Assembly: GCA_903862655.1 (NCBI GenBank)
Contig: CAIOZA010000142.1
Coordinates: 62,001 to 126,000, forward strand
Reading direction: 5' to 3'
Origin: an uncultured Ignavibacteria bacterium
GTDB taxonomy: Bacteria > Bacteroidota > Ignavibacteria > Kapaibacteriales > UBA2268
DNA length: 64,000 nucleotides
Made by a program: the position numbers and the translations under genes. How positions within the stretch are numbered: position 1 is the stretch's first letter; every line of letters begins with the position of its first letter. The notes under the pieces are model-generated. The model saw only the letters and a program-made list of their open reading frames with translations, was not told the DNA's origin and searched no databases. This document shows positions 50,689-63,500 of this stretch, in pieces.

Positions 50689-51255
50689 ATGATCTTCACC
50701 CAATTCTGAACACAGAACGAAAAGAGATCATTTGTTATTAAAAAATTGATTTTCATACTCCACCGGAGTTAAATAACCTAAACTTGAATGTAATCTTTGT
50801 CTGTTTAAAAAAACTTCAATATAATCAAATAATGCTAATTCTGATTCCGATCTTGGCGAAAAATTTCTGTGATACACAAATTCCTTTTTCAATGAATGAA
50901 AAAATGTCTCCGTACTGCATAGTCTGAGTGGTGTTCATCAATAAATTTATATTTATCTTCTATGCTTTCGAAAATATGCCGAGTGCTTTTTTTTTAAAAT
51001 ATCAGGTTCCTCTCGTAAAACCAGATTTTCCCTTGTTAGCTTTGAGATTTCCTCTTCTGCAGGTGTTTGGTGTCCCTTGCCAGCTCAGCTACCTTCTTTT
51101 CTTTATTAACTGTTAGCTTCGCTGTATGAATTTTGAAGTTTTTGTCGAATATTCGTTTATTTCGCCTATCCCTTTTGATCTCCTTTCATTTCTAAATATT
51201 ATATTTAACAATTTTTCCTCTCTCTTCCTACTGTCTTATATCGGGTGAAGATCAT
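50689..51255 (-). mobile_element. Degraded, internally deleted IS3-family insertion sequence with both terminal inverted repeats
   Basis: Left end ATGATCTTCACCC (50689-50701), right end GGGTGAAGATCAT (51243-51255); minus strand encodes OrfA fragments (KRIFDKNFKIHTAKLTVNKEKKVAELARDT; EEISKLTRENLVLREEPDILKKKALGIFSKA), OrfB start (YKFIDEHHSDYAV) and OrfB end (STETFFHSLKKEFVYHRNFSPRSESELALFDYIEVFLNRQRLHSSLGYLTPVEYENQFFNNK*, stop at 50728). Confidence 0.9.
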
Positions 51256-51390: not shown

Positions 51391-51408
51391 TTGTGAAAAA
51401 AATAACAA
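51391..51408. promoter_or_regulatory. Candidate Rex operator
   Basis: TTGTGAAAAAAATAACAA matches 16/18 of the Rex consensus TTGTGAAWWWWTTCACAA; 35 nt upstream of rex ATG. Confidence 0.65.
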
Positions 51409-51443: not shown

Positions 51444-52073
51444 ATGAAAACGGCCTCTGAAAAAGTAGTACATCGTCTTATTCTTTACAAAAAATTACTG
51501 AAGAATTTCCAGTCAAAAAGTGTCAGAAATATTTTTTCCCATAATTTAGCAGAACATGCCTCACTAAACCCTGCACAAATCCGAAGAGATCTCATGCTTG
51601 TTGGATATGACGGTTCAACGGTATCAGGTTATAATGTTAATGACCTCCTTTTTTGCATTGAGAAATTCCTTTATCCTAATGAGATACAAAACGTTGCCTT
51701 GATAGGTCTCGGAAACCTTGGTAAATCAATTCTGGATTATTGCTATGGGCGGCATCCCATAATAGCTATCAATGCTATTTTCGAAAAAGATCCTAATAAA
51801 ATTAATCGTATAATATGTGGAACAAGATGCTATCATATCGACGATCTTGAAATCATAGTTAAAAAGAATAGCATTAAAATTGCAATAATAGCAATTTCAT
51901 CCTCAGTTACAGAAACTATTGCTAAAAGACTGATTGAATGTGGTGTTAAATCAATTATTAATTATTCAAATGCATGTCTCAGTTTTCCGGCAGAAATTTA
52001 TGTTGAAAATAGAGATATGATGTTTGCTGTAGAAAAGGCAGCATTTTTTTCAAAAAAAGAAAAGGAAATTTAG
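51444..52073 (+). CDS. rex: Redox-sensing transcriptional repressor Rex
   Basis: N-term winged-helix region LNPAQIRRDLMLVGYDGSTVSGYNVNDLL; Rossmann NVALIGLGNLGKSILDY; IINYSNACLSFPAEIYVENRDM. Confidence 0.93.
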   Translation: MKTASEKVVHRLILYKKLLKNFQSKSVRNIFSHNLAEHASLNPAQIRRDLMLVGYDGSTVSGYNVNDLLFCIEKFLYPNEIQNVALIGLGNLGKSILDYCYGRHPIIAINAIFEKDPNKINRIICGTRCYHIDDLEIIVKKNSIKIAIIAISSSVTETIAKRLIECGVKSIINYSNACLSFPAEIYVENRDMMFAVEKAAFFSKKEKEI

Positions 52074-52074
52074 A

Positions 52075-52545
52075 ATGATAAGTAATGAAAAAATTCTAAA
52101 CAAATATCCTGACCCGAGAAGAGAAAACCTGATTCCACTTTTACAGGAAATTCAGGAATTACATGGTTACGTTTCAAGAGAAACAATTATTGAAATCGGA
52201 AGTCATTTACCGTTACCTGCCAGTAAAATTTATGGTGTAGCTACTTTCTACAATCAGTTTAGATTTAATCCACCCGGAAAGTATCATATTCAGATATGCA
52301 GAGGTACGGCATGTCATGTTAAGGGATCTTCGAATGTACTTGATATGCTTCAGAGGGAATTGAAGATTAAAGCAGGAGAAACTACGCGTGATGGCATGTT
52401 CAGCATAGAAGTTGTAGCGTGTCTGGGTGCTTGCGGACTAGCTCCGGTAATTAGTGTGAATGGTGAGTTTCATGCAGATGTAAGTAGTAAAAAACTTCAA
52501 CTAATTCTAAAGCAATTACGGGCAAAGGATAAAGGAAATGGCTGA
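52075..52545 (+). CDS. hydC: NADH-dependent [FeFe]-hydrogenase gamma subunit (NuoE-like, 2Fe-2S)
   Basis: KIYGVATFYNQFRFNPPGKYHIQICRGTACHVKGS...VACLGACGLAPVISVNGEFH. Confidence 0.9.
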   Translation: MISNEKILNKYPDPRRENLIPLLQEIQELHGYVSRETIIEIGSHLPLPASKIYGVATFYNQFRFNPPGKYHIQICRGTACHVKGSSNVLDMLQRELKIKAGETTRDGMFSIEVVACLGACGLAPVISVNGEFHADVSSKKLQLILKQLRAKDKGNG

Positions 52546-54526
52546 TTTAAAAAATTTAAAGTGTTGTAATGAATGCTGGCACAATAAGGATAATCCATGT
52601 TTTCATTTTATAGATTGTATAACTGGAAAGCCGGTTTGCCATAATGATGTTGATTGTGAATTTGAACAATCCAAGAAAATGTCCCAATTAAAAAATGAAA
52701 ATTCAGAAATCATAATAATTTTTGTTGGTTCAGGAACTTGTGGATTAGGAGCGGGAGCTGGCAAAACTATAAAAGCTATTAGTAAATATATAAATGAGAA
52801 TGATGTAGATGCCAGGATTGTTGAAGTTGGATGTATCGGAATATGCACTGAAGAGCCATTAGTAGATATTCAGATGCCGGGTAAATCAAGAATTTCTTTC
52901 AAAAAGATAACTGAAGAAAAAGTAAACCTGCTTTTGGATTCTGTTTTTGGAGGAGATATTCCTATTGAGCATGTATTAGGGCAATATAATTCAAGATTGT
53001 CAATTGACGGGATACCTTTACTTAGTGAGCTCTCATTTTTCATGCATCAGACTAGATGGGTCCTGGAAAACATAGGTATAATAAATCCTGTGAATATAAA
53101 TGAATACATTGCGAATAATGGATTTATGGGTCTGTCAAAGACACTTCAAAACTATACTCCAATTGAAATTTGTAATCAGATTCTTGATAGTGGCTTGCGG
53201 GGCAGAGGTGGAGGCGGTTTCCTTACCGGCAAGAAGTGGCACATGGCACAATCTTCATCAGCAGAGCAGAAATATTTAATTTGCAATGCAGACGAAGGAG
53301 ATCCAGGTGCCTTTATGGATAGAGCATTGATTGAAGGTGATCCTTATAAACTGATTGAAGGTATAGCCATTGCTGCTTATGCCATAGGTGCATCAAAAGC
53401 ATATGTTTATCTGAGAGCAGAATATCCTCTAGCAATTAAAAATTTGAAAATTGCAATTTCCAAAGCAATTGAATATGGTTTACTTGGTTCGAATATCCTT
53501 GATAGTGGTTTTAATCTTGATATTGTGATAAAAATGGGTGCAGGTGCTTTTGTCTGTGGTGAAGAAACTGCTTTGATAAACAGCATCGAGGGTAAACGGG
53601 GTATGCCTAAGCCCAGACCTCCATTTCCGGCAGTGAAAGGATTATTTGGCAAACCTACAATTATCAATAATGTAGAAACACTTGCTAATGTACCCAAAAT
53701 CATTCTTAATGGAGCAAAATGGTTTAATTCTATAGGTACTGAGACAAGCAAAGGTACAAAGGTATTTGCCTTATCAGGAAATATAAATATAACCGGGCTT
53801 GTAGAAGTATCTATGGGAACAAGTATTGATGATATTGTTTATACCATAGGTGGAGGTATTCCAAATAATAAATCACTCAAAGCAGTTCAGATCGGTGGAC
53901 CATCCGGTGGATGTATTCACACATCAATATTAGATATCGAAGTTGATTATGAATCACTAAAAACAGTCGGGGCAATGATGGGGTCAGGTGGTTTAGTGGT
54001 AATGGATGAAGACACCTGTATGGTTGATATAGCAAAGTTTTTCATGGATTTTATCCAGAGAGAAAGCTGTGGAAAGTGTATCCCTTGTAGAGAAGGCACT
54101 AGAAGAATGCTTGAAATATTGGAGAAAATCTCCAGTAAACCAAGTAAGGGGAAATCTATATCTCAACTAGAAAGATTTCACTCAATATTACATCTCAAGA
54201 GTTTAGCTGAAGTGATACAAGACACTAGTCTCTGTGGTTTAGGAAAGTCTGCACCAAACCCAGTTTTGAGCACTCTTCGTTGGTTTAGCGATGAATACGA
54301 TGTTCATGTCTATGAAAAGAGATGTCCTGCAAAGAAATGCAAGGATCTGCTTGTTTATCAAATTGACAATACTAAATGCAATGGTTGTACAATTTGCTCG
54401 AAGAATTGTCCTTCAGATGCAATTTTAGGAGAATTAAAGCACCATCATTATATCAATCAGGATAAGTGTATTGGATGTAGTGCTTGTTTGGATGTATGTA
54501 AACCCAAAGCCATTTTTGTAAATTGA
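52538..54526 (+). CDS. hydB: NADH-dependent [FeFe]-hydrogenase beta subunit (NuoF-like, with C-terminal 2x[4Fe-4S])
   Basis: GLRGRGGGGFLTGKKWHMA, CNADEGDPGAFMDRALIEGDPYKLIEG, ESCGKCIPCREGTRRM, C-term CNGCTICSKNCPSDAI...CIGCSACLDVCKPKAI; overlaps hydC by 8 nt. Confidence 0.93.
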   Translation: MADLKNLKCCNECWHNKDNPCFHFIDCITGKPVCHNDVDCEFEQSKKMSQLKNENSEIIIIFVGSGTCGLGAGAGKTIKAISKYINENDVDARIVEVGCIGICTEEPLVDIQMPGKSRISFKKITEEKVNLLLDSVFGGDIPIEHVLGQYNSRLSIDGIPLLSELSFFMHQTRWVLENIGIINPVNINEYIANNGFMGLSKTLQNYTPIEICNQILDSGLRGRGGGGFLTGKKWHMAQSSSAEQKYLICNADEGDPGAFMDRALIEGDPYKLIEGIAIAAYAIGASKAYVYLRAEYPLAIKNLKIAISKAIEYGLLGSNILDSGFNLDIVIKMGAGAFVCGEETALINSIEGKRGMPKPRPPFPAVKGLFGKPTIINNVETLANVPKIILNGAKWFNSIGTETSKGTKVFALSGNINITGLVEVSMGTSIDDIVYTIGGGIPNNKSLKAVQIGGPSGGCIHTSILDIEVDYESLKTVGAMMGSGGLVVMDEDTCMVDIAKFFMDFIQRESCGKCIPCREGTRRMLEILEKISSKPSKGKSISQLERFHSILHLKSLAEVIQDTSLCGLGKSAPNPVLSTLRWFSDEYDVHVYEKRCPAKKCKDLLVYQIDNTKCNGCTICSKNCPSDAILGELKHHHYINQDKCIGCSACLDVCKPKAIFVN

Positions 54527-54542
54527 TGATGGAGAATTAAAA

Positions 54543-56264
54543 GTGTTTAATATAGAAGTTAATAGTAATTTAATTGAAGCAAAACCAGGAGAGTATATAC
54601 TATCAACTCTGAAAAGGGCTGGGATTAAAGTTCCAACTTTGTGCCATCTGGAAGGATTAATTCCGTCAGGTGCATGCAGAATGTGTGTTGTTGAAGTAGA
54701 GGGGATGCATGATTTGATACCCAGTTGTGCTTTCCCGGTTTCTGATGGAATGAAAATCAAAACACACTCAGCCAGAGTGGTTAAAGCTAGAAAAACCATT
54801 GTAGAATTATTACTTTCAAATCATCCTGATGACTGTCTTTATTGTGTTAGAAATGAGGACTGCGAACTGCAGAAACTTGCAAAACAACATGGAGTAATTG
54901 AACGTACTTTTGCCGGAGAAAAAAATAAGTATTTTCTGGATATGTCAAGTCCTTCGATTGTTCGTGATCCTTCAAAGTGTATTTTATGTGGTAGATGCGT
55001 CAGGGTTTGTGAGGAAACACAGGGAGTATCGGCAATTGATTTTATTGGCAGAGGCTCTAAGACAAGAATAGGAACAGCTTTTGATGAAGGACTGAATATT
55101 TCGAGCTGTATCAACTGTGGTCAATGCATTATGGTATGTCCAACTGCTGCCTTACGGGGGCAGAGATACATAGAAGAAGTCCAGGAAGCCCTAAGAGATC
55201 CTAAAAAACATGTTGTAATTCAGCATGCTCCGGCTGTGTCAGTCACACTAGGTGAGACTTTAAACTGTAAAAATGGTGCTGATGTTAGTGGTATAATGAC
55301 TTCAGCTCTCAGGACACTAGGATTTGACAGAGTTTTCGAAACATCCTTTTCAGCAGATCTAACAATAATGGAAGAAGCATCAGAGCTGGTTCAAAGAATA
55401 AAAACTGGTGGAACATTGCCTATGTTCACCAGCTGTTCCCCAGGATGGGTGAAATTCCTGGAACAATTCTATCCTGAATTTATACCAAATCTATCTACCT
55501 GCAAGAGTCCACAAATGATGCTGGGAGCTGTAATCAAGAGTTATTATGCAGAAATTGAAGGGATTGACCCTGATGATATTTATAATGTATCTGTAATGCC
55601 TTGTGTTGCCAAAAAGTTTGAAGCAGGACGACAAGAGCTCTCAAATAATGGGAAGCCGGACATAGATGCAGTTTTAACAACTCGCGAACTTGCAATGATG
55701 ATCGAAACAAGTGGAATTGAAGCCAATTCTTTATCTCCAAGCATAGCCGATAACCCATTCGGCGAAAGAAGTACAGCCGGTAAATTATTCGGTGTAAGTG
55801 GTGGTGTCATGGAAGCAGCTATTAGAACTGCAAATTTCCTCCTCACAGGTTATGAACTTGAGCAATCACAGATTCTGGAAATACGTGGACTTGATGGAAT
55901 AAAAGAAACTATAGTTCAGTTAGGGGATCTTACCTTAGGTGTAGCAGTTGTCAGTGGATTAAATAATGCCAGAAAAATACTGGAGCAAATTAAAAAAGGT
56001 AGAAATGATCTGCATTTCATTGAAGTAATGTCTTGCCCCGGTGGATGTATAGCAGGTGGTGGACAACCAATAAAAACTGATATTGAGCTAATCAAATCGA
56101 GAATGAAATCCCTGTATTATATTGATAAAAGTGAGCCTGTTCGAGCATCACATGATAATCCTTATATTAAAAAATTATATGATGAATATCTTGAACATCC
56201 TTTGAGCCATAAAAGTCACAAATTATTGCATACTAGTTATTCTGAACGTGAAGTGCTGATTTAA
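54543..56264 (+). CDS. hydA: NADH-dependent [FeFe]-hydrogenase catalytic subunit
   Basis: 2Fe-2S CHLEGLIPSGACRMCVVEVEG; HPDDCLYCVRNEDC; CILCGRCVRVC...CINCGQCIMVCP; H-cluster motifs TSCSPGW, MPCVAKKFEAGR, FGVSGGVMEAAIRT, EVMSCPGGCIAGGGQP; GTG start. Confidence 0.95.
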   Translation: MFNIEVNSNLIEAKPGEYILSTLKRAGIKVPTLCHLEGLIPSGACRMCVVEVEGMHDLIPSCAFPVSDGMKIKTHSARVVKARKTIVELLLSNHPDDCLYCVRNEDCELQKLAKQHGVIERTFAGEKNKYFLDMSSPSIVRDPSKCILCGRCVRVCEETQGVSAIDFIGRGSKTRIGTAFDEGLNISSCINCGQCIMVCPTAALRGQRYIEEVQEALRDPKKHVVIQHAPAVSVTLGETLNCKNGADVSGIMTSALRTLGFDRVFETSFSADLTIMEEASELVQRIKTGGTLPMFTSCSPGWVKFLEQFYPEFIPNLSTCKSPQMMLGAVIKSYYAEIEGIDPDDIYNVSVMPCVAKKFEAGRQELSNNGKPDIDAVLTTRELAMMIETSGIEANSLSPSIADNPFGERSTAGKLFGVSGGVMEAAIRTANFLLTGYELEQSQILEIRGLDGIKETIVQLGDLTLGVAVVSGLNNARKILEQIKKGRNDLHFIEVMSCPGGCIAGGGQPIKTDIELIKSRMKSLYYIDKSEPVRASHDNPYIKKLYDEYLEHPLSHKSHKLLHTSYSEREVLI

Positions 56265-56275
56265 CAATAATTGAA

Positions 56276-58291
56276 ATGAGTAAAATGTATAATAAATCAA
56301 CAAATCTGTTAATTACCACAATCAAAGAAAGATGCAGGGTGTGTTATACCTGTGTCAGGGAATGTCCGGCTAAGGCTATAAGAATTTCTGGAGGTCAGGC
56401 TGAAGTTGTACCCGGCAGATGTATTGGATGTGGAAATTGTGTGAGAGTATGCAGTCAGGATGCTAAACAATACCTTAATTCAAGGAATGAAGTATTAGAA
56501 TTGCTGAAAACTGAATCCATGGTAGTAGCCTGCATCGCACCAAGTTTCCCAGCTGATTTTTATGATATTACACCGGAAAAAATGGTGGGAATGTTGAAAG
56601 TAATAGGTTTCGATCATGTTTATGAAGTTGCTTTTGGAGCTGATTTAGTTGCCAGAGAGATGAACAACTTTCTAGATTCTTCTAATGGGAAAAGACTCAT
56701 TTCCACTACTTGTCCAGCAGTTTTTGAGTATGTGAAGTGCTATCATCCAAATTTAACAGAGAATCTGGCTACGGTAGTTTCTCCAATGATAGCAATGTCA
56801 CGTGTAATTAAAGAAATAAATGGTAGGGATGTTAAGATTGTCTTTATCGGACCTTGCATTGCAAAGAAAGCAGAAGCATCTGATTTGGAAGTTTTCGGCG
56901 AGATCGATGAAGTTCTTACCTTTAAAGAATTGAAGCAGATATTTGAAGAATTACAGATTGTTTCCAAAGATGTTCCATCCTTTCCATTTGATGGACCAAT
57001 TGGAGGCAAGGGTGCTCTATTTCCTTTGAGTAGAGGAATGATGCAATCTGTTGAAGTATTTGAAGATCTTATGAAAGGTGATATTGTTTCTGCAGACGGT
57101 AGGTACGAATTTATTGATGCAATCAAGGAATTTGAAAGTGGTGATTTAAATACAAAATTACTTGAACTTCTTTGTTGTAATGGTTGCATAATGGGTCCAG
57201 GAATGGTTACTGATGAACCTGTCTTCAGAAGACGCTCAAGGATAAGCAAATATGTAAGAAATAGAATGAATGAGATTGATCGGAGTGAATTTAATGGCAA
57301 TATCGAAAAGTTTTCTAAACTGAATTTATCGAGAACATTTATTCCAAATGATCAAAGAACTTCATTACCAGATCCAGAGGAAATAAAAAGCGTTCTCATC
57401 AGAATGGGCAAAGTTACATTAATGGATGAGCTAAATTGCGGTGCCTGCGGATACGAATCCTGCAGAGAGCACGCAATTGCAATTATCGAAGGTTTGGCAG
57501 AAGATGAAATGTGTCTCCCATTTAGCATTGAAAGACTACATAAAAGTGTTAAACAGTTGGAAGTTTCTAACGAACAGCTTGCAAAAACAAGAGAGGCATT
57601 GAATCAATCAGAGAAACTCGCATCAATGGGCCAACTTGCTGCAGGTATTGCTCATGAGCTTAACAATCCTTTGGGTGTTGTTCTAATGTATGCAAATCTG
57701 GTTCTTGAAGATATTGACAGGCAATCAACAGCATTTGACGATCTGAATATCATTGCACAAGAAGCCGAGAGATGTAAAAAAATAGTATCAGATTTACTAA
57801 ATTTCGCAAGAAAAAACAAAGTAGTATTTCAACCTGTTAATATTTGTGACATGGTTGATCAGTGTCTAAAGGTTACTCAAGTTCCTACAAATATTTCAGT
57901 AGAAATAGTACATGAATATAAAAATCTAACGGCAGACATTGACAGGGATCAGATATTACAAATAATGAATAATCTTATTACTAATGCAATTAATTCTATG
58001 GCAAAGGGTGGCAAACTTATTGTGGTTACAAGGAAGAACAATATGAACATCGAAATAATTATTAAGGATTCAGGGGTTGGAATTCCTGATCAAATTATTG
58101 ATAAAATATTTCAACCATTTTTCACCACTAAGCAGATTGGAAAAGGTACAGGATTAGGACTAGCTGTTACTTATGGGATTATCAAGATGCATAAGGGTAC
58201 GATAAAAGTTAAATCAAATGCTGATCCGGGGAAAGGACAAACCGGTACGACTTTTACAGTTATTCTTCCTGTAGAAAACTCTACAAATTAG
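56276..58291 (+). CDS. Sensory [FeFe]-hydrogenase-like protein fused to a histidine kinase
   Basis: CRVCYTCVRECPAKAI...CIGCGNCVRVC; H-cluster-like TTCPAVFEYV, GPCIAKKAEA, CCNGCIMGPGM; FeS domain CGACGYESCREHAIAIIEGLAEDEMC; kinase SEKLASMGQLAAGIAHELNNPLG, NNLITNAINSM, GKGTGLGLAVTYGI. Confidence 0.92.
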   Translation: MSKMYNKSTNLLITTIKERCRVCYTCVRECPAKAIRISGGQAEVVPGRCIGCGNCVRVCSQDAKQYLNSRNEVLELLKTESMVVACIAPSFPADFYDITPEKMVGMLKVIGFDHVYEVAFGADLVAREMNNFLDSSNGKRLISTTCPAVFEYVKCYHPNLTENLATVVSPMIAMSRVIKEINGRDVKIVFIGPCIAKKAEASDLEVFGEIDEVLTFKELKQIFEELQIVSKDVPSFPFDGPIGGKGALFPLSRGMMQSVEVFEDLMKGDIVSADGRYEFIDAIKEFESGDLNTKLLELLCCNGCIMGPGMVTDEPVFRRRSRISKYVRNRMNEIDRSEFNGNIEKFSKLNLSRTFIPNDQRTSLPDPEEIKSVLIRMGKVTLMDELNCGACGYESCREHAIAIIEGLAEDEMCLPFSIERLHKSVKQLEVSNEQLAKTREALNQSEKLASMGQLAAGIAHELNNPLGVVLMYANLVLEDIDRQSTAFDDLNIIAQEAERCKKIVSDLLNFARKNKVVFQPVNICDMVDQCLKVTQVPTNISVEIVHEYKNLTADIDRDQILQIMNNLITNAINSMAKGGKLIVVTRKNNMNIEIIIKDSGVGIPDQIIDKIFQPFFTTKQIGKGTGLGLAVTYGIIKMHKGTIKVKSNADPGKGQTGTTFTVILPVENSTN

Positions 58292-58346: not shown

Positions 58347-58736
58347 GTGAATAAAAAAATATTATTAGTAGATGATGATATTGATTTCCTAAATCAAATT
58401 GAAATTCATCTTAAGAATTCAGGTTTTGATGTTGCTGTTTCGGAAAGCGAGAAAGATGCAGAAAAACTACTGCCTATTTTCAATCCCGATCTGGTGATAA
58501 CAGATCTTATGATTGATAATTTCGACGCTGGATTTTTGCTGGCATACAAAGTAAAGAAATTCAATCCTCAGATTCCTGTTATTATTGTTACCGGAGTCAC
58601 GCATGAGCTTGGTTTTAAGTTCTATGCCGGTACACAAGAAGAGCGTCAATGGATCAAAGCAGATGCAATTTTAAATAAACCAATTAGATATGAACAGTTA
58701 TTAAAAGAAATTTATACACATTTACATTTAGATTAG
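58347..58736 (+). CDS. Single-domain response regulator (receiver only)
   Basis: KKILLVDDDIDFLNQIEIHL...PDLVITDLMIDNFDAGFLLAYKVK...VIIVTGVTHELG...ILNKPIRYEQL; 129 aa. Confidence 0.9.
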   Translation: MNKKILLVDDDIDFLNQIEIHLKNSGFDVAVSESEKDAEKLLPIFNPDLVITDLMIDNFDAGFLLAYKVKKFNPQIPVIIVTGVTHELGFKFYAGTQEERQWIKADAILNKPIRYEQLLKEIYTHLHLD

Positions 58737-58739
58737 AAT

Positions 58740-59858
58740 ATGTTGACTTTAAAAGTATTAATTGTTGATGATGAACCTGGAATGAGGCAAAGCATTCAGC
58801 GTGCATTAGTAAATTATAAAATGAAGTTGCAGGACATCGAGGAAGAAATTAGATTTGAAATGTCTGTTGCTGAAAATGGTGAACAGGCACTAACTCAAAT
58901 TGCTGAATTCAAACCTGACATTCTGCTTTTAGATTATAAACTTCCGGATATGACCGGGCTTGATGTGCTGGAACAATTTGACAATAAAGATGAGCAGATT
59001 CTCACCATTATGGTTACGGCTTATGCATCTCTTGATACGGCTGTCAGTGCTATAAAATCAGGTGCTTTTGATTTTCTAGCTAAACCATTCACACCAAACG
59101 AATTAAGATCAACAATAAGTAAGGCAGCACGTAATCTGATACATTCAAGAGAAATAAAAAAGCTTCAAGCTGAAAAACGTCAGGTACGTTTTCAATTTAT
59201 TTCTGTGCTTGGTCATGAATTGAAGTCTCCATTGGGTGCAGTTGAAGGTTATCTAAACATGATAAAGGAAAGAACCATTGGAATTGAGCTTGAAAAATAT
59301 GATAATATGGTTGATAGATGTCTAATCAGGACAGATCAAATGCGAAAATTAATCGGAGATCTGCTTGAGATGACAAAAATTGAGTCAGGTCAACGTCAAC
59401 GTGACCTTCAAGAAATCAATTTATCTGAACTCGTAAAAACGTCAATCGAGTCTATACAACCTGATGCTGATCGAAGGAATATAACAATTAGCTTAGTTAT
59501 GGACTCACATCTGAACATCATTGCTGACAAATCTGAAATTGAGATTATTTTAAACAACCTATTCTCCAACGCAGTCAAGTATAATAGGGATAACGGAAAT
59601 GTAGATATTTCAATTAAGAGCTTTGATCATGAATTACAAATTATTGTCAGTGATACAGGGATAGGTTTATCTGAAGATGATATTCATGCCTTATTCAGGG
59701 ACTTTGTCAGGATAAAAAATCAAAAGACTAAAGATATTCTAGGAAGTGGATTGGGGCTTTCTACAGTGAAGAAAATTGCTAATCTTTATAATGGAGATAT
59801 TATTGTGAAAAGTACACCTGATATAGGAAGTATATTTACTGTAAAATTAATTAAATAA
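58740..59858 (+). CDS. Receiver domain-histidine kinase hybrid
   Basis: VLIVDDEPGMRQSIQRAL...PDILLLDYKLPDMTGLDVL...FLAKPFTPNEL; ISVLGHELKSPLGAVEGYL; NNLFSNAVKYNRDNGNV; GSGLGLSTVKKIA. Confidence 0.93.
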   Translation: MLTLKVLIVDDEPGMRQSIQRALVNYKMKLQDIEEEIRFEMSVAENGEQALTQIAEFKPDILLLDYKLPDMTGLDVLEQFDNKDEQILTIMVTAYASLDTAVSAIKSGAFDFLAKPFTPNELRSTISKAARNLIHSREIKKLQAEKRQVRFQFISVLGHELKSPLGAVEGYLNMIKERTIGIELEKYDNMVDRCLIRTDQMRKLIGDLLEMTKIESGQRQRDLQEINLSELVKTSIESIQPDADRRNITISLVMDSHLNIIADKSEIEIILNNLFSNAVKYNRDNGNVDISIKSFDHELQIIVSDTGIGLSEDDIHALFRDFVRIKNQKTKDILGSGLGLSTVKKIANLYNGDIIVKSTPDIGSIFTVKLIK

Positions 59859-60092: not shown

Positions 60093-60371
60093 TTGAGGTA
60101 CTTTACAAACTTTATACTTTTAACATCATGCCAACCACTTGTTTCTGCCGTTCTCGAACAAATCGGCATCTCCACCAATCACGTCCATCTCCTTTTGCAG
60201 ATCGACACAAAACGTCCAATCTGCAAAACCGTCGAGATCATCAAATCCCTCTCATCAAAGAAATTCAAAAAGCTCTCCGGCTCCGACTGGCACGGCTGGC
60301 AGAACGGCTGCTTCATTTCATCTGTAGGCAGATCCACAAAAACAAAGATCAAGAAGTGTTTGGAGGAGTAG
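60093..60371 (+). pseudogene. IS200-like (Y1/HUH) transposase remnant, copy 3 (5'-truncated; frame still open)
   Basis: VLEQIGISTNHVHLLLQIDTKRPICKTVEIIKSLSSKKFKKLSGSDWHGWQNGCFISSVGRSTKTKIKKCLEE*: HVH HUH motif retained, expected catalytic Tyr (KKY) replaced by Cys; N-terminal part missing. Confidence 0.85.
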
Positions 60372-60526
60372 TAAAATATCTTTTACATACTTGTCTTGGT
60401 TTACAATAACATTCCTTCAATATTATATATAATTATTCTTTAAGTTTATTCAATATTTGACGATAAGCATAATTCCCTTTAGCTCAGATTTTTATTTAGA
60501 TATCCATTCTTTTTGAGGTTCGTTTT

Positions 60527-63500
60527 ATGAATAGTGACAATATTACAAAAGAAGAGCTTCTGCAGGAATTGCAGGAGCTTAAAGTAGAGAATGAATCCCT
60601 GAAAATTAAATCTCAAAATTTTATCATAGAACCCAATCAAATTGAAGAATCTTTAAATATTAGTGATGAAAGATACAGAACTATCCTTCAAACTGCAATG
60701 GATGGCTTTTGGCTTACAGATTCTCAATTAAATTTCCTTGACGTTAATGAAACGTATTGCCGGATGAGTGGCTATAGCAGAGAAGAATTATTAAAAATGA
60801 AAGTCTCTGATGTAGAGGCTATTGAAACTCCGGAAGTTACAGCCGTTCGGGCAAAAAGAATATTTGAACTTGGAGAAGACCGCTTTAAATCCCAGCATTA
60901 TCGAAAAGATGGGACTAAATTTGATGTTGAAGTCAGCATTCAATTCAGAAATATTGATAAAGGATGCTTCATAGCATTTATTCAGGATATCACAGAGCAC
61001 AAAAAAGCAGAAATCAGTTTAAGAGAAAATCATCGCTTTCTTGGAAATCTTATTTCCAACCTACCTGGTATGGTATACCGATGTAAAAATAATATTGATT
61101 GGTCGATGCAATTTGTTGGCGAAGGATGTTTAGCGCTTCTCGGATATAAACCAGAACAATTGATTCAATCGGGAGAAATTGAATTTGGAGACTTGATACA
61201 TCAAAACGACAGGAAAATGGTTTGGGATACTGTTCAGTCAGGAATTCAGGCAAAGCAGCCGTTCCAAATGGAATATCGCATTATCGATTCAAGTGGAGCA
61301 GAAAAGTGGGTTTGGGAACAAGGCTATGGGGTTTACAGCAATGCTGGTGATTTAGAATTTTTAGAGGGTTTCATTTCTGATATTAGTGAACGTAAAAAAG
61401 CAGAGAATGAACTCATAGAATCCGAAATAATGATTTCTTCGATAATAAACAGCACACCGGATTATATTTGGTCGGTAAATATTCAGGATTTTAGATTATT
61501 GACGTTCAATACAGGAATGCAGAATTATTTCACTACCAATTTGGGGGTTGTTTTAAAACCCGGGATGACTCCTGGCGATGTTTTTGCAAATCGAAAATTA
61601 GGCGATATGTGGAATGATATATACAGAATTGTAATTAGCAAAGGTTACCATTCTTTTGAATATACTACTTCAACAGGCAAGAGCATCATTCATTATTCTT
61701 TGAATCTTTTAAAGCATGGTGATACCGTTTTTGGAATTTCAGCATTTGGTAGAGATATTACAGAGCAAAAAGTTGCTGAAAAAGCAATACAGGAATCACA
61801 TCGATTGCTGAAAAGCACTTTCGACAGCCTGCGCGATGCTGTTTTCATCATTGATTTTAAAACAACAGCAATTATAGACTTTAACATTGCTGCAACCGAA
61901 ATATTTGGCTACAGCCAAGAAGAAATGATAGGCAACTCAACGGAGTTTCTTCATATCAATAAGGACGCACTTGCTGAATTTCGCAAACATCTGTCTGCCG
62001 GAATTGCAGAAAAAGGATATTTATTTCTCCCAGAGTTCAACATGAAGCGTAAAGATGGCACAGTCTTTCCGACCGAACATGCCGTAACACCAAACATAGA
62101 CGAAAATGGCGTGCACATCGGCTGGGTGAGTGTAGTGCGCGACATCACTGTCCGCAAGGAGGCTGATGACAAACTGCGGGAGAGCTTGCTTACTCTGGAT
62201 CATGTTGAACAGTTAACTCATATTGGTCATTGGACTGTTAATATCATTGATGGCTCCTTTTATCATTCTGATGAAACCAAGAGGATATTTGGTTATGAAC
62301 CGTCGGAATATACATTATCTGTTGAAGAAGCTATCATCGCCTATCATCCTGATGATCGCGGTGATGTAATCAGATATTTCAATAGAGCTATCGAAACAGG
62401 TGAAGGGTATGAATTTGATTTGCGGGTTATTCAGCCGGGTGGAAATATAAGATATGTGCATTCCAAGGGATATGCTGAGAAGAATGAAGTTGGAAAAGTC
62501 ATTAGGGTTTACGGAGTGTTTCAGGATATCACTGAGCGTAAAATTGCAGAACAAGCTATTATAGAAAGCAATGATTACAATCGTCAGTTATTTAGTTCAT
62601 CGCAAATTGGGTTAGCGCTGGCAAAAATGACGGGTGAATTAGTTGATATCAATCAGGCTTATGCAGATATAATTGGATATTCCATTGAAGAATCTTTACA
62701 ATTAAGCTATTGGGATATCACCCCTGAAAAATATGCAGTAAAAGAGCAAGAACAATTAAAAAGCTTGTATGAGAACGGTTTTTACGGACCTTATGAAAAA
62801 GAATACATCCATAAAAACGGAACGCTCGTTCCTGTGGTTTTATCAGGGAATATTATTGAACGCAACGGCGAAAAATTCATTTGGTCGAGTGTTGAAAATA
62901 TTACCGAACGCAAGAACGCAGAACAAGCACTTAAAGAAAATGAAGAAAAATACAGAACTCTTTTTGAAACATCAAATGATGCCATTATGCTGTATGATAA
63001 CATTGGTTGGGTTGAATGCAACACTAGGGCGTTGACAATGTTTGGTTGCTCCCGTGAGCAGTTCATTGGTTCAAATCCAATCAACTTCTCACCCCCCAAA
63101 CAAGCCGATGGCCAGTCTTCGGCAGAATTAGCTATCGTAAGGATAAATATTGCTTTCGAAGGAAAACCTCAATTCTTTGAATGGGAGCATTGCAAGGCTG
63201 ATGGAACGCTTTTTACTACAGAGGTCAGTCTAAATCGGTTAGAATTGGAAGGCAAACCTTATATGCAGGCAATTGTGCGAGATATTACCAAACGTAAGGA
63301 AATGGAAAATGCCCTGCAGACAAGTGAATTAGAATTCAGAACTCTTTTTGAAAAAGCTAGCGAAGGTATTATTTATCTGAAACCCGATATTGAAATTGTT
63401 GAAATAAATGAAGCGTTTGCAAAATTGCACGGCTACACAGTCGAAGAAATGCGAAACATTAAATTGCAGGAACTTGATGTGGAAGATTTATCAAATGTTA

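Follow-up and report, generated by a model that had tools for sequence, protein, structure and literature searches.

A putative H2-sensing histidine kinase with an H-cluster domain, encoded beside an NADH-linked [FeFe] hydrogenase in an Ignavibacteria genome

The window, that is the whole stretch of 64,000 nucleotides of DNA analysed here, harbours a same-strand run of genes headed by the redox repressor gene rex (51444..52073; NF003995 match above cut-off), all features described below being on the forward (+) strand. It is followed by the genes of a NuoE-like subunit, HydC/BfuC (52075..52545, profile matches), a NuoF-like subunit, HydB/BfuB (52538..54526, Pfam), and a group A [FeFe] hydrogenase of the NADH-linked trimeric type, HydA (54543..56264), which matches NF040763 (NADH-dependent group A6) with 825 bits, above cut-off. 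The fifth gene (56276..58291) encodes an H-cluster sensor histidine kinase. Next come a single-domain response regulator (58347..58736), whose phospho-acceptor D53 is invariant in 83 of 83 aligned sequences, and a REC-HisKA-HATPase kinase of LvrB-like architecture (58740..59858), in which D65 and H159 are invariant (59/59 aligned). The host genome (4.07 Mb, 148 contigs) encodes three H-cluster-type proteins as well as HydE, HydG and HydF, the latter on other contigs, so that the cell is predicted to be able to make the H-cluster. HydA and a second hydA product of this genome (L147 8626-10506, contig C132) both display TSCSPGW in L1, where a serine takes the place of the [4Fe-4S]H ligand C300; this form, reported for Melainabacteria (PMC3787301), occurs in 45 of 105 matching HydA-like ORFs of the relatives' loci, overlapping loci included.

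A weak candidate Rex operator, TTGTGAAAAAAATAACAA (51391..51408), lies 35 bp before the rex start. Such a motif is expected about twice per window and was found near the first gene in only 2 of 40 relatives, and it was rejected as a conserved control element. Further upstream, a 12-bp perfect inverted pair (tgatcttcaccc at 50690 and gggtgaagatca at 51243) flanks an apparent decayed insertion sequence (50690-51254). On the other side of the operon, two overlapping short frames resembling a broken small transposase (60093-60409) sit between the REC-kinase gene and a multi-PAS sensor gene, which starts at 60527 and continues beyond the end of the window. Three proteins of the window have Por secretion tails, which point to a host of the Bacteroidota type.

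The sensor gene is an open reading frame with an ATG start encoding 671 aa, and the direct fusion of an H-domain to a kinase, proposed in a first-pass annotation of the letters alone, proved real, the Pfam domains and the motifs quoted there (STTCPAVFE, aa 143-151; GPCIAKK, 192-198; CCNGCIMGPGM, 300-310; CGACGYESC, 388-396) being all recovered in order. The two N-terminal [4Fe-4S] motifs correspond to a ferredoxin domain (56315..56470; Fer4-type Pfam matches, aa 16-63) with the invariant cysteines C20, C23, C26, C30 and C49, C52, C55, C59. The H-domain (Fe_hyd_lg_C, 56519..57205; E 5e-50, aa 82-308) precedes a C-terminal [4Fe-4S] domain (PF04060, 57428..57520; E 6e-9, aa 385-415), the Cx2Cx4Cx16C pattern of which is formed by C388, C391, C396 and C413. 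A coiled-coil signalling helix (57515..57652), with 46 residues between C413 and H460, leads into HisKA/DHp (57626..57814; E 2e-14, aa 451-513) and HATPase_c (57941..58276; E 8e-24, aa 556-667). As expected of a HisKA-type kinase, the phospho-acceptor H460 (codon 57653-57655) and intact N, G1, F and G2 boxes are present (N566/N570, DxGxG 598-602, GxGTGLGL 622-629). These boxes and all candidate cluster cysteines are invariant or nearly so in alignments of 87-104 relatives, which agrees with the earlier prediction of signalling by phosphorylation; a kinase domain lacking ATP-binding residues would have spoken against it. A chance motif match is ruled out by the approximately 100 relatives. The AlphaFold (AF2) model has a mean pLDDT of 87.5, mostly above 90 in the H-domain; among solved structures, [FeFe] hydrogenases (E 2e-22) and the ZraS kinase resemble it most.

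With its Fe_hyd_lg_C fold and four H-cluster cysteines (146, 194, 301 and 304), all conserved in the 87-104 sequences, the protein falls within the [FeFe]-hydrogenase superfamily. About 100 relatives also keep A88, P89, K197 and E200, the first three of which match A230, P231 and K358 of CpI (CpI numbering), and the residues that correspond to the CN/CO pocket, together with the bridging cysteine C304, are invariant or nearly so. In L1 (STTCPAV, 56702..56722), C146 is the ligand and T145 occupies the proton-transfer position C299, which is variable in the kinase family (T/A/S/P/D/N). L2 (FIGPCIAKK, 56843..56869) keeps the ligand C194 and K197 and has G192 at the M353 position, where all members of the family have G. 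In L3 (ELLCCNGCIMGPG, 57164..57202), L299 stands at the M497 position, as does a leucine in all members but one. Changes at these three positions are marks of sensory types in TmHydS (PMC10055695) and TamHydS (PMC8163306), and the loss of C299 and the M353 to G and M497 to L replacements are thus as expected of such types (PMC8163306, PMC10055695).

The L3 block had been described as an altered CxxGC with its cysteines kept. It is indeed altered, but the alignments point to C301/C304 (CxGC, i.e. CxxGC minus one residue), rather than C300/C304, as the most likely pair of ligands. Two residues separate the L3 cysteines in 66 of 66 aligned kinase-clade members, against three in group A, group B, PAS-type, MCP-type and group D-like proteins, whose L3 has the form CxxGC (CxxAC or CxxSC in the D-like ones). 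CCNGC of the window protein can be read both ways, the FCEGC of a subclade cannot, and the second of the adjacent cysteines is the invariant one. No report of this contraction was found in the literature searched; PMC11406978 mentions that standard signatures miss motifs in group C1, with nothing further on L3. The short L3 provides a simple sequence mark for the kinase-fused clade and, as the loop is one residue short, cofactor insertion should not be assumed.

In a tree of 74 rows based on the ferredoxin and H-domains, the kinase clade holds together (96/78) and has the PAS-type sensory proteins as its sister group, with supports of 97/97 for the two together and 98/91 for the PAS clade itself. 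Beside this pair lie the MCP type, linked to chemotaxis, and a form built as PAS-HK-REC-Hpt. Group A stands apart (100/99), and constraining the window protein into it is rejected (p-AU 0.0086). The L1 TSCCPxW, L2 MPCxxK and L3 ExMxCxxGC motifs of group A are absent, and the TIGR02512 score is 101 bits for a cut-off of 406, so that a catalytic group A identity was discarded. Moreover, the protein combines an H-domain, a C-terminal Cx2Cx4Cx16C FeS domain, a signalling domain and replacements of C299 and both methionines, and is therefore, by its features and the published descriptions, of the HydDB group C kind. It is very improbable that it is a catalytic hydrogenase that merely carries a kinase: TmHydS and TamHydS, likewise devoid of C299, do slowly turn over H2 (PMC8163306, PMC10055695), but the group A placement is rejected, proton-path positions are lost and the protein has no electron-output subunit of its own. 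The position outside group A and the loss of C299 with the cluster cysteines retained rather favour a sensor, as had been anticipated. Within the clade, the window protein groups with a Kapaibacterium sequence (99/94) and not with the FCEGC forms of the other same-class genomes, which suggests horizontal transfer.

The annotation implied that such a direct fusion is rare, whereas it is widespread and earlier papers describe it (PMC5037454, PMC11406978). Scanning GTDB genomes with a sequence pattern gathered 76 relatives, and about 100 proteins with the H-domain/kinase architecture are now identified in at least 12 named phyla, among which Planctomycetota, Bacteroidota, Acidobacteriota, Elusimicrobiota, Myxococcota, Krumholzibacteriota, Latescibacterota, Ignavibacteriota, Fermentibacterota, Hydrogenedentota, Bdellovibrionota and Spirochaetota. 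In a sample of 396 genomes from the phylum of the window, 38 matched and, besides the window's own genome, 25 of those 38 encode the long kinase-bearing form (E 1e-101 or better). Pfam retrieved Fe_hyd_lg_C, FeS, HisKA and HATPase_c domains in 66 of 66 full-length members and a PAS domain in none (0/66), either between the FeS domain and the kinase, in line with the earlier reading, or elsewhere after the C-terminal FeS domain as in the TmHydS type. Other H-cluster sensors share the same front end with different outputs: MCP chemotaxis domains (L154-L157) or PAS-HisKA-HATPase-REC-REC-Hpt in a protein of 1348 aa (L158 3422-7468). One sensor gene (L139 2580-3855, G062:C11) is split into two overlapping frames, perhaps by a frameshift or an assembly error.

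The operon organization is largely shared by the relatives, counting only loci with room to show the neighbour. Immediately upstream of the sensor gene, 55 of 68 loci have a group A hydA, at least two of the misses (L013, L059) being caused solely by ORF-start choice; nuoE and nuoF are near in 35 of 44 and rex in 23 of 44. Of 59 loci, 55 carry the REC-kinase downstream and 49 have a single receiver close by. We found no description of this conserved REC-kinase and of the taxonomic breadth of the family in the literature searched. The tight linkage to the NuoE-NuoF-HydA genes would fit a protein that reads electron flux through, or contact with, the neighbouring HydABC complex instead of free H2; we regard this as quite unlikely, since its own near-complete H-domain would be superfluous and the neighbouring hydA is missing at L016, L030, L043, L046, L062 and L077.

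In relatives, the operon often runs on into the maturase genes hydE, hydG and hydF, at least one of which occurs in the same locus in 30 of the 43 relatives with 6.5 kb downstream. This fits an H-cluster in the sensor, though the catalytic hydrogenase next door depends on these maturases too. Among these maturase genes, 11 of 43 loci (including L012, L022, L023, L024, L036, L040, L048, L054, L081 and L083) also contain an aspartate ammonia-lyase gene, whose product might supply ammonia for the azadithiolate bridge. The maturases bear as well on the idea of a general redox sensor, whose H-domain would lack the [2Fe] subcluster and whose FeS clusters would inform the kinase of the cell's ferredoxin/NADH redox state. 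The departure of L1 and L3 from group A, with L3 one residue short, and the presence of Rex, another redox sensor, at the head of the operon are in its favour; the conservation of C304, of the other H-cluster cysteines and of the CN/CO pocket residues, and the location of maturase genes at the same locus, make it unlikely, if less so than the reading of the HydABC complex.

The linker between the FeS domain and the kinase is constrained. Between C413 and H460 there are either 46 residues (71 sequences) or 39 (29 sequences), with no other value; the two lengths are one heptad apart, and leucines recur at seven-residue intervals. When the linker is left out of the tree building, at least three switches between 39 and 46 are needed, of which starred branches force two. 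Most of the other variable spacings in the sensor differ by 1-3 residues and none follows a heptad rule, which indicates that the restriction is local to the linker. The coiled coil noted at first pass is also borne out by the AlphaFold model, in which 414-479 is a single continuous helix, of low confidence (pLDDT about 54) around 441-460. The existence of only two linker lengths, one heptad apart, suggests a rigid coiled-coil coupling and, together with the modelled helix, supports the view that the FeS domain passes its signal on to the kinase mechanically. Linker lengths that follow heptads have precedents in kinases under REC control (PMC13269768) and in photoreceptor kinases (PMC11164954); for the kinase-fused clade, no report of a two-spacing rule was found in the literature searched. 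The one-heptad rule offers a precise and testable statement on how the signal passes from the FeS domain to the kinase.

Altogether, we consider it probable (about 0.7) that the protein is a cytoplasmic sensor kinase for H2, or for an H2-linked redox signal, devoted to the NADH-linked [FeFe] hydrogenase encoded next to it. Its H-domain would bind a matured but catalytically poor H-cluster, the state of which would be altered by reaction with H2. The C-terminal FeS domain would then pass the change on, serving as a structural joint and not necessarily through its own redox change. In TamHydS, a related group D protein, the C-terminal cluster is not reduced by H2 (PMC13104023), which makes a simple electron wire to the kinase doubtful. 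Beyond the FeS domain, the straight coiled coil, which is the start of the DHp helix, would switch the kinase/phosphatase balance at H460, in whichever sign the response takes, and the phosphate would go to the receiver (58347) and/or to the REC domain of the REC-kinase (58740). The REC-kinase may relay it to an unlinked output adjusting the expression or activity of the hydrogenase. Such a relay is the simplest reading. Searches near the module revealed no conserved DNA-binding output gene and no conserved sigma-54 regulator (one match at -8 kb in a GAFTGA-type scan). More speculatively, and with somewhat less than even confidence, the shortened CxGC L3 could create a distinct, sensing-tuned cofactor environment whose state is sent mechanically through the heptad-locked FeS-to-DHp coiled coil, the whole forming a PAS-free, single-chain H2-sensing kinase module spread across many phyla. 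The literature searched contains no experiment in which a kinase-fused member binds H2 or becomes phosphorylated in response to it, and a review calls the H2-sensing role of group C [FeFe] hydrogenases putative (PMC8924675). Sensor and kinase being in one soluble chain, H2-dependent autophosphorylation should be directly measurable.

On the published description, the protein and its gene order match BfuT and the sub-type V cluster, and the kind is thus already known. BfuT is a group C3 protein with a histidine kinase domain encoded beside bfuA in sub-type V bifurcating-hydrogenase clusters, which occur with BfuT in Hydrogenedentota, Calditrichota and Bacteroidota (PMC11406978). The window locus likewise has a group C H-domain joined to a histidine kinase next to bfuA in C-B-A-T order, according to the text of PMC11406978, an order also seen among the relatives in the Hydrogenedentota locus L056, and the sister relation of the kinase clade to the PAS type beside A-type hydrogenases is as described there for C3. 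The comparison is by description, and PMC11406978, which names WP_006928132.1 as a HydDB C3 hit, contains no linker, L3 or REC-kinase analysis. HydDB names its group C1 'histidine kinase-linked (putative)' [FeFe] hydrogenase and predicts H2 sensing via a histidine kinase (PMC5037454), but the kinase-bearing operon type is placed in C3 and the best HydDB C1 match has no HATPase domain (PMC11406978). TmHydS of group C shares the two N-terminal clusters, the H-domain, the C-terminal FeS domain and the changes of C299 and both methionines, but ends in a PAS domain instead of a kinase and has S at the M497 position (PMC10055695). TamHydS of group D has the C-terminal Cx2Cx4Cx16C cluster, lacks the proton-path cysteine and has Leu at the M497 position (PMC8163306, PMC13104023); it bears no output domain, and the group D-like proteins of the present set keep the normal L3 spacing. 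In the regulatory [NiFe] hydrogenase/HoxJ system (HydDB group 2b), a hydrogenase-derived H2 sensor also drives a histidine kinase, with an unrelated metal site and a PAS-containing kinase on a separate subunit (see also PMC8163306). Finally, the 58740 protein shares the REC-DHp-CA order of LvrB, whose REC domain is phosphorylated by an upstream kinase that thereby activates it, and whose class has strongly heptad-preferring linkers (PMC13269768); the difference is that the input to the 58740 protein would be the H-cluster kinase.
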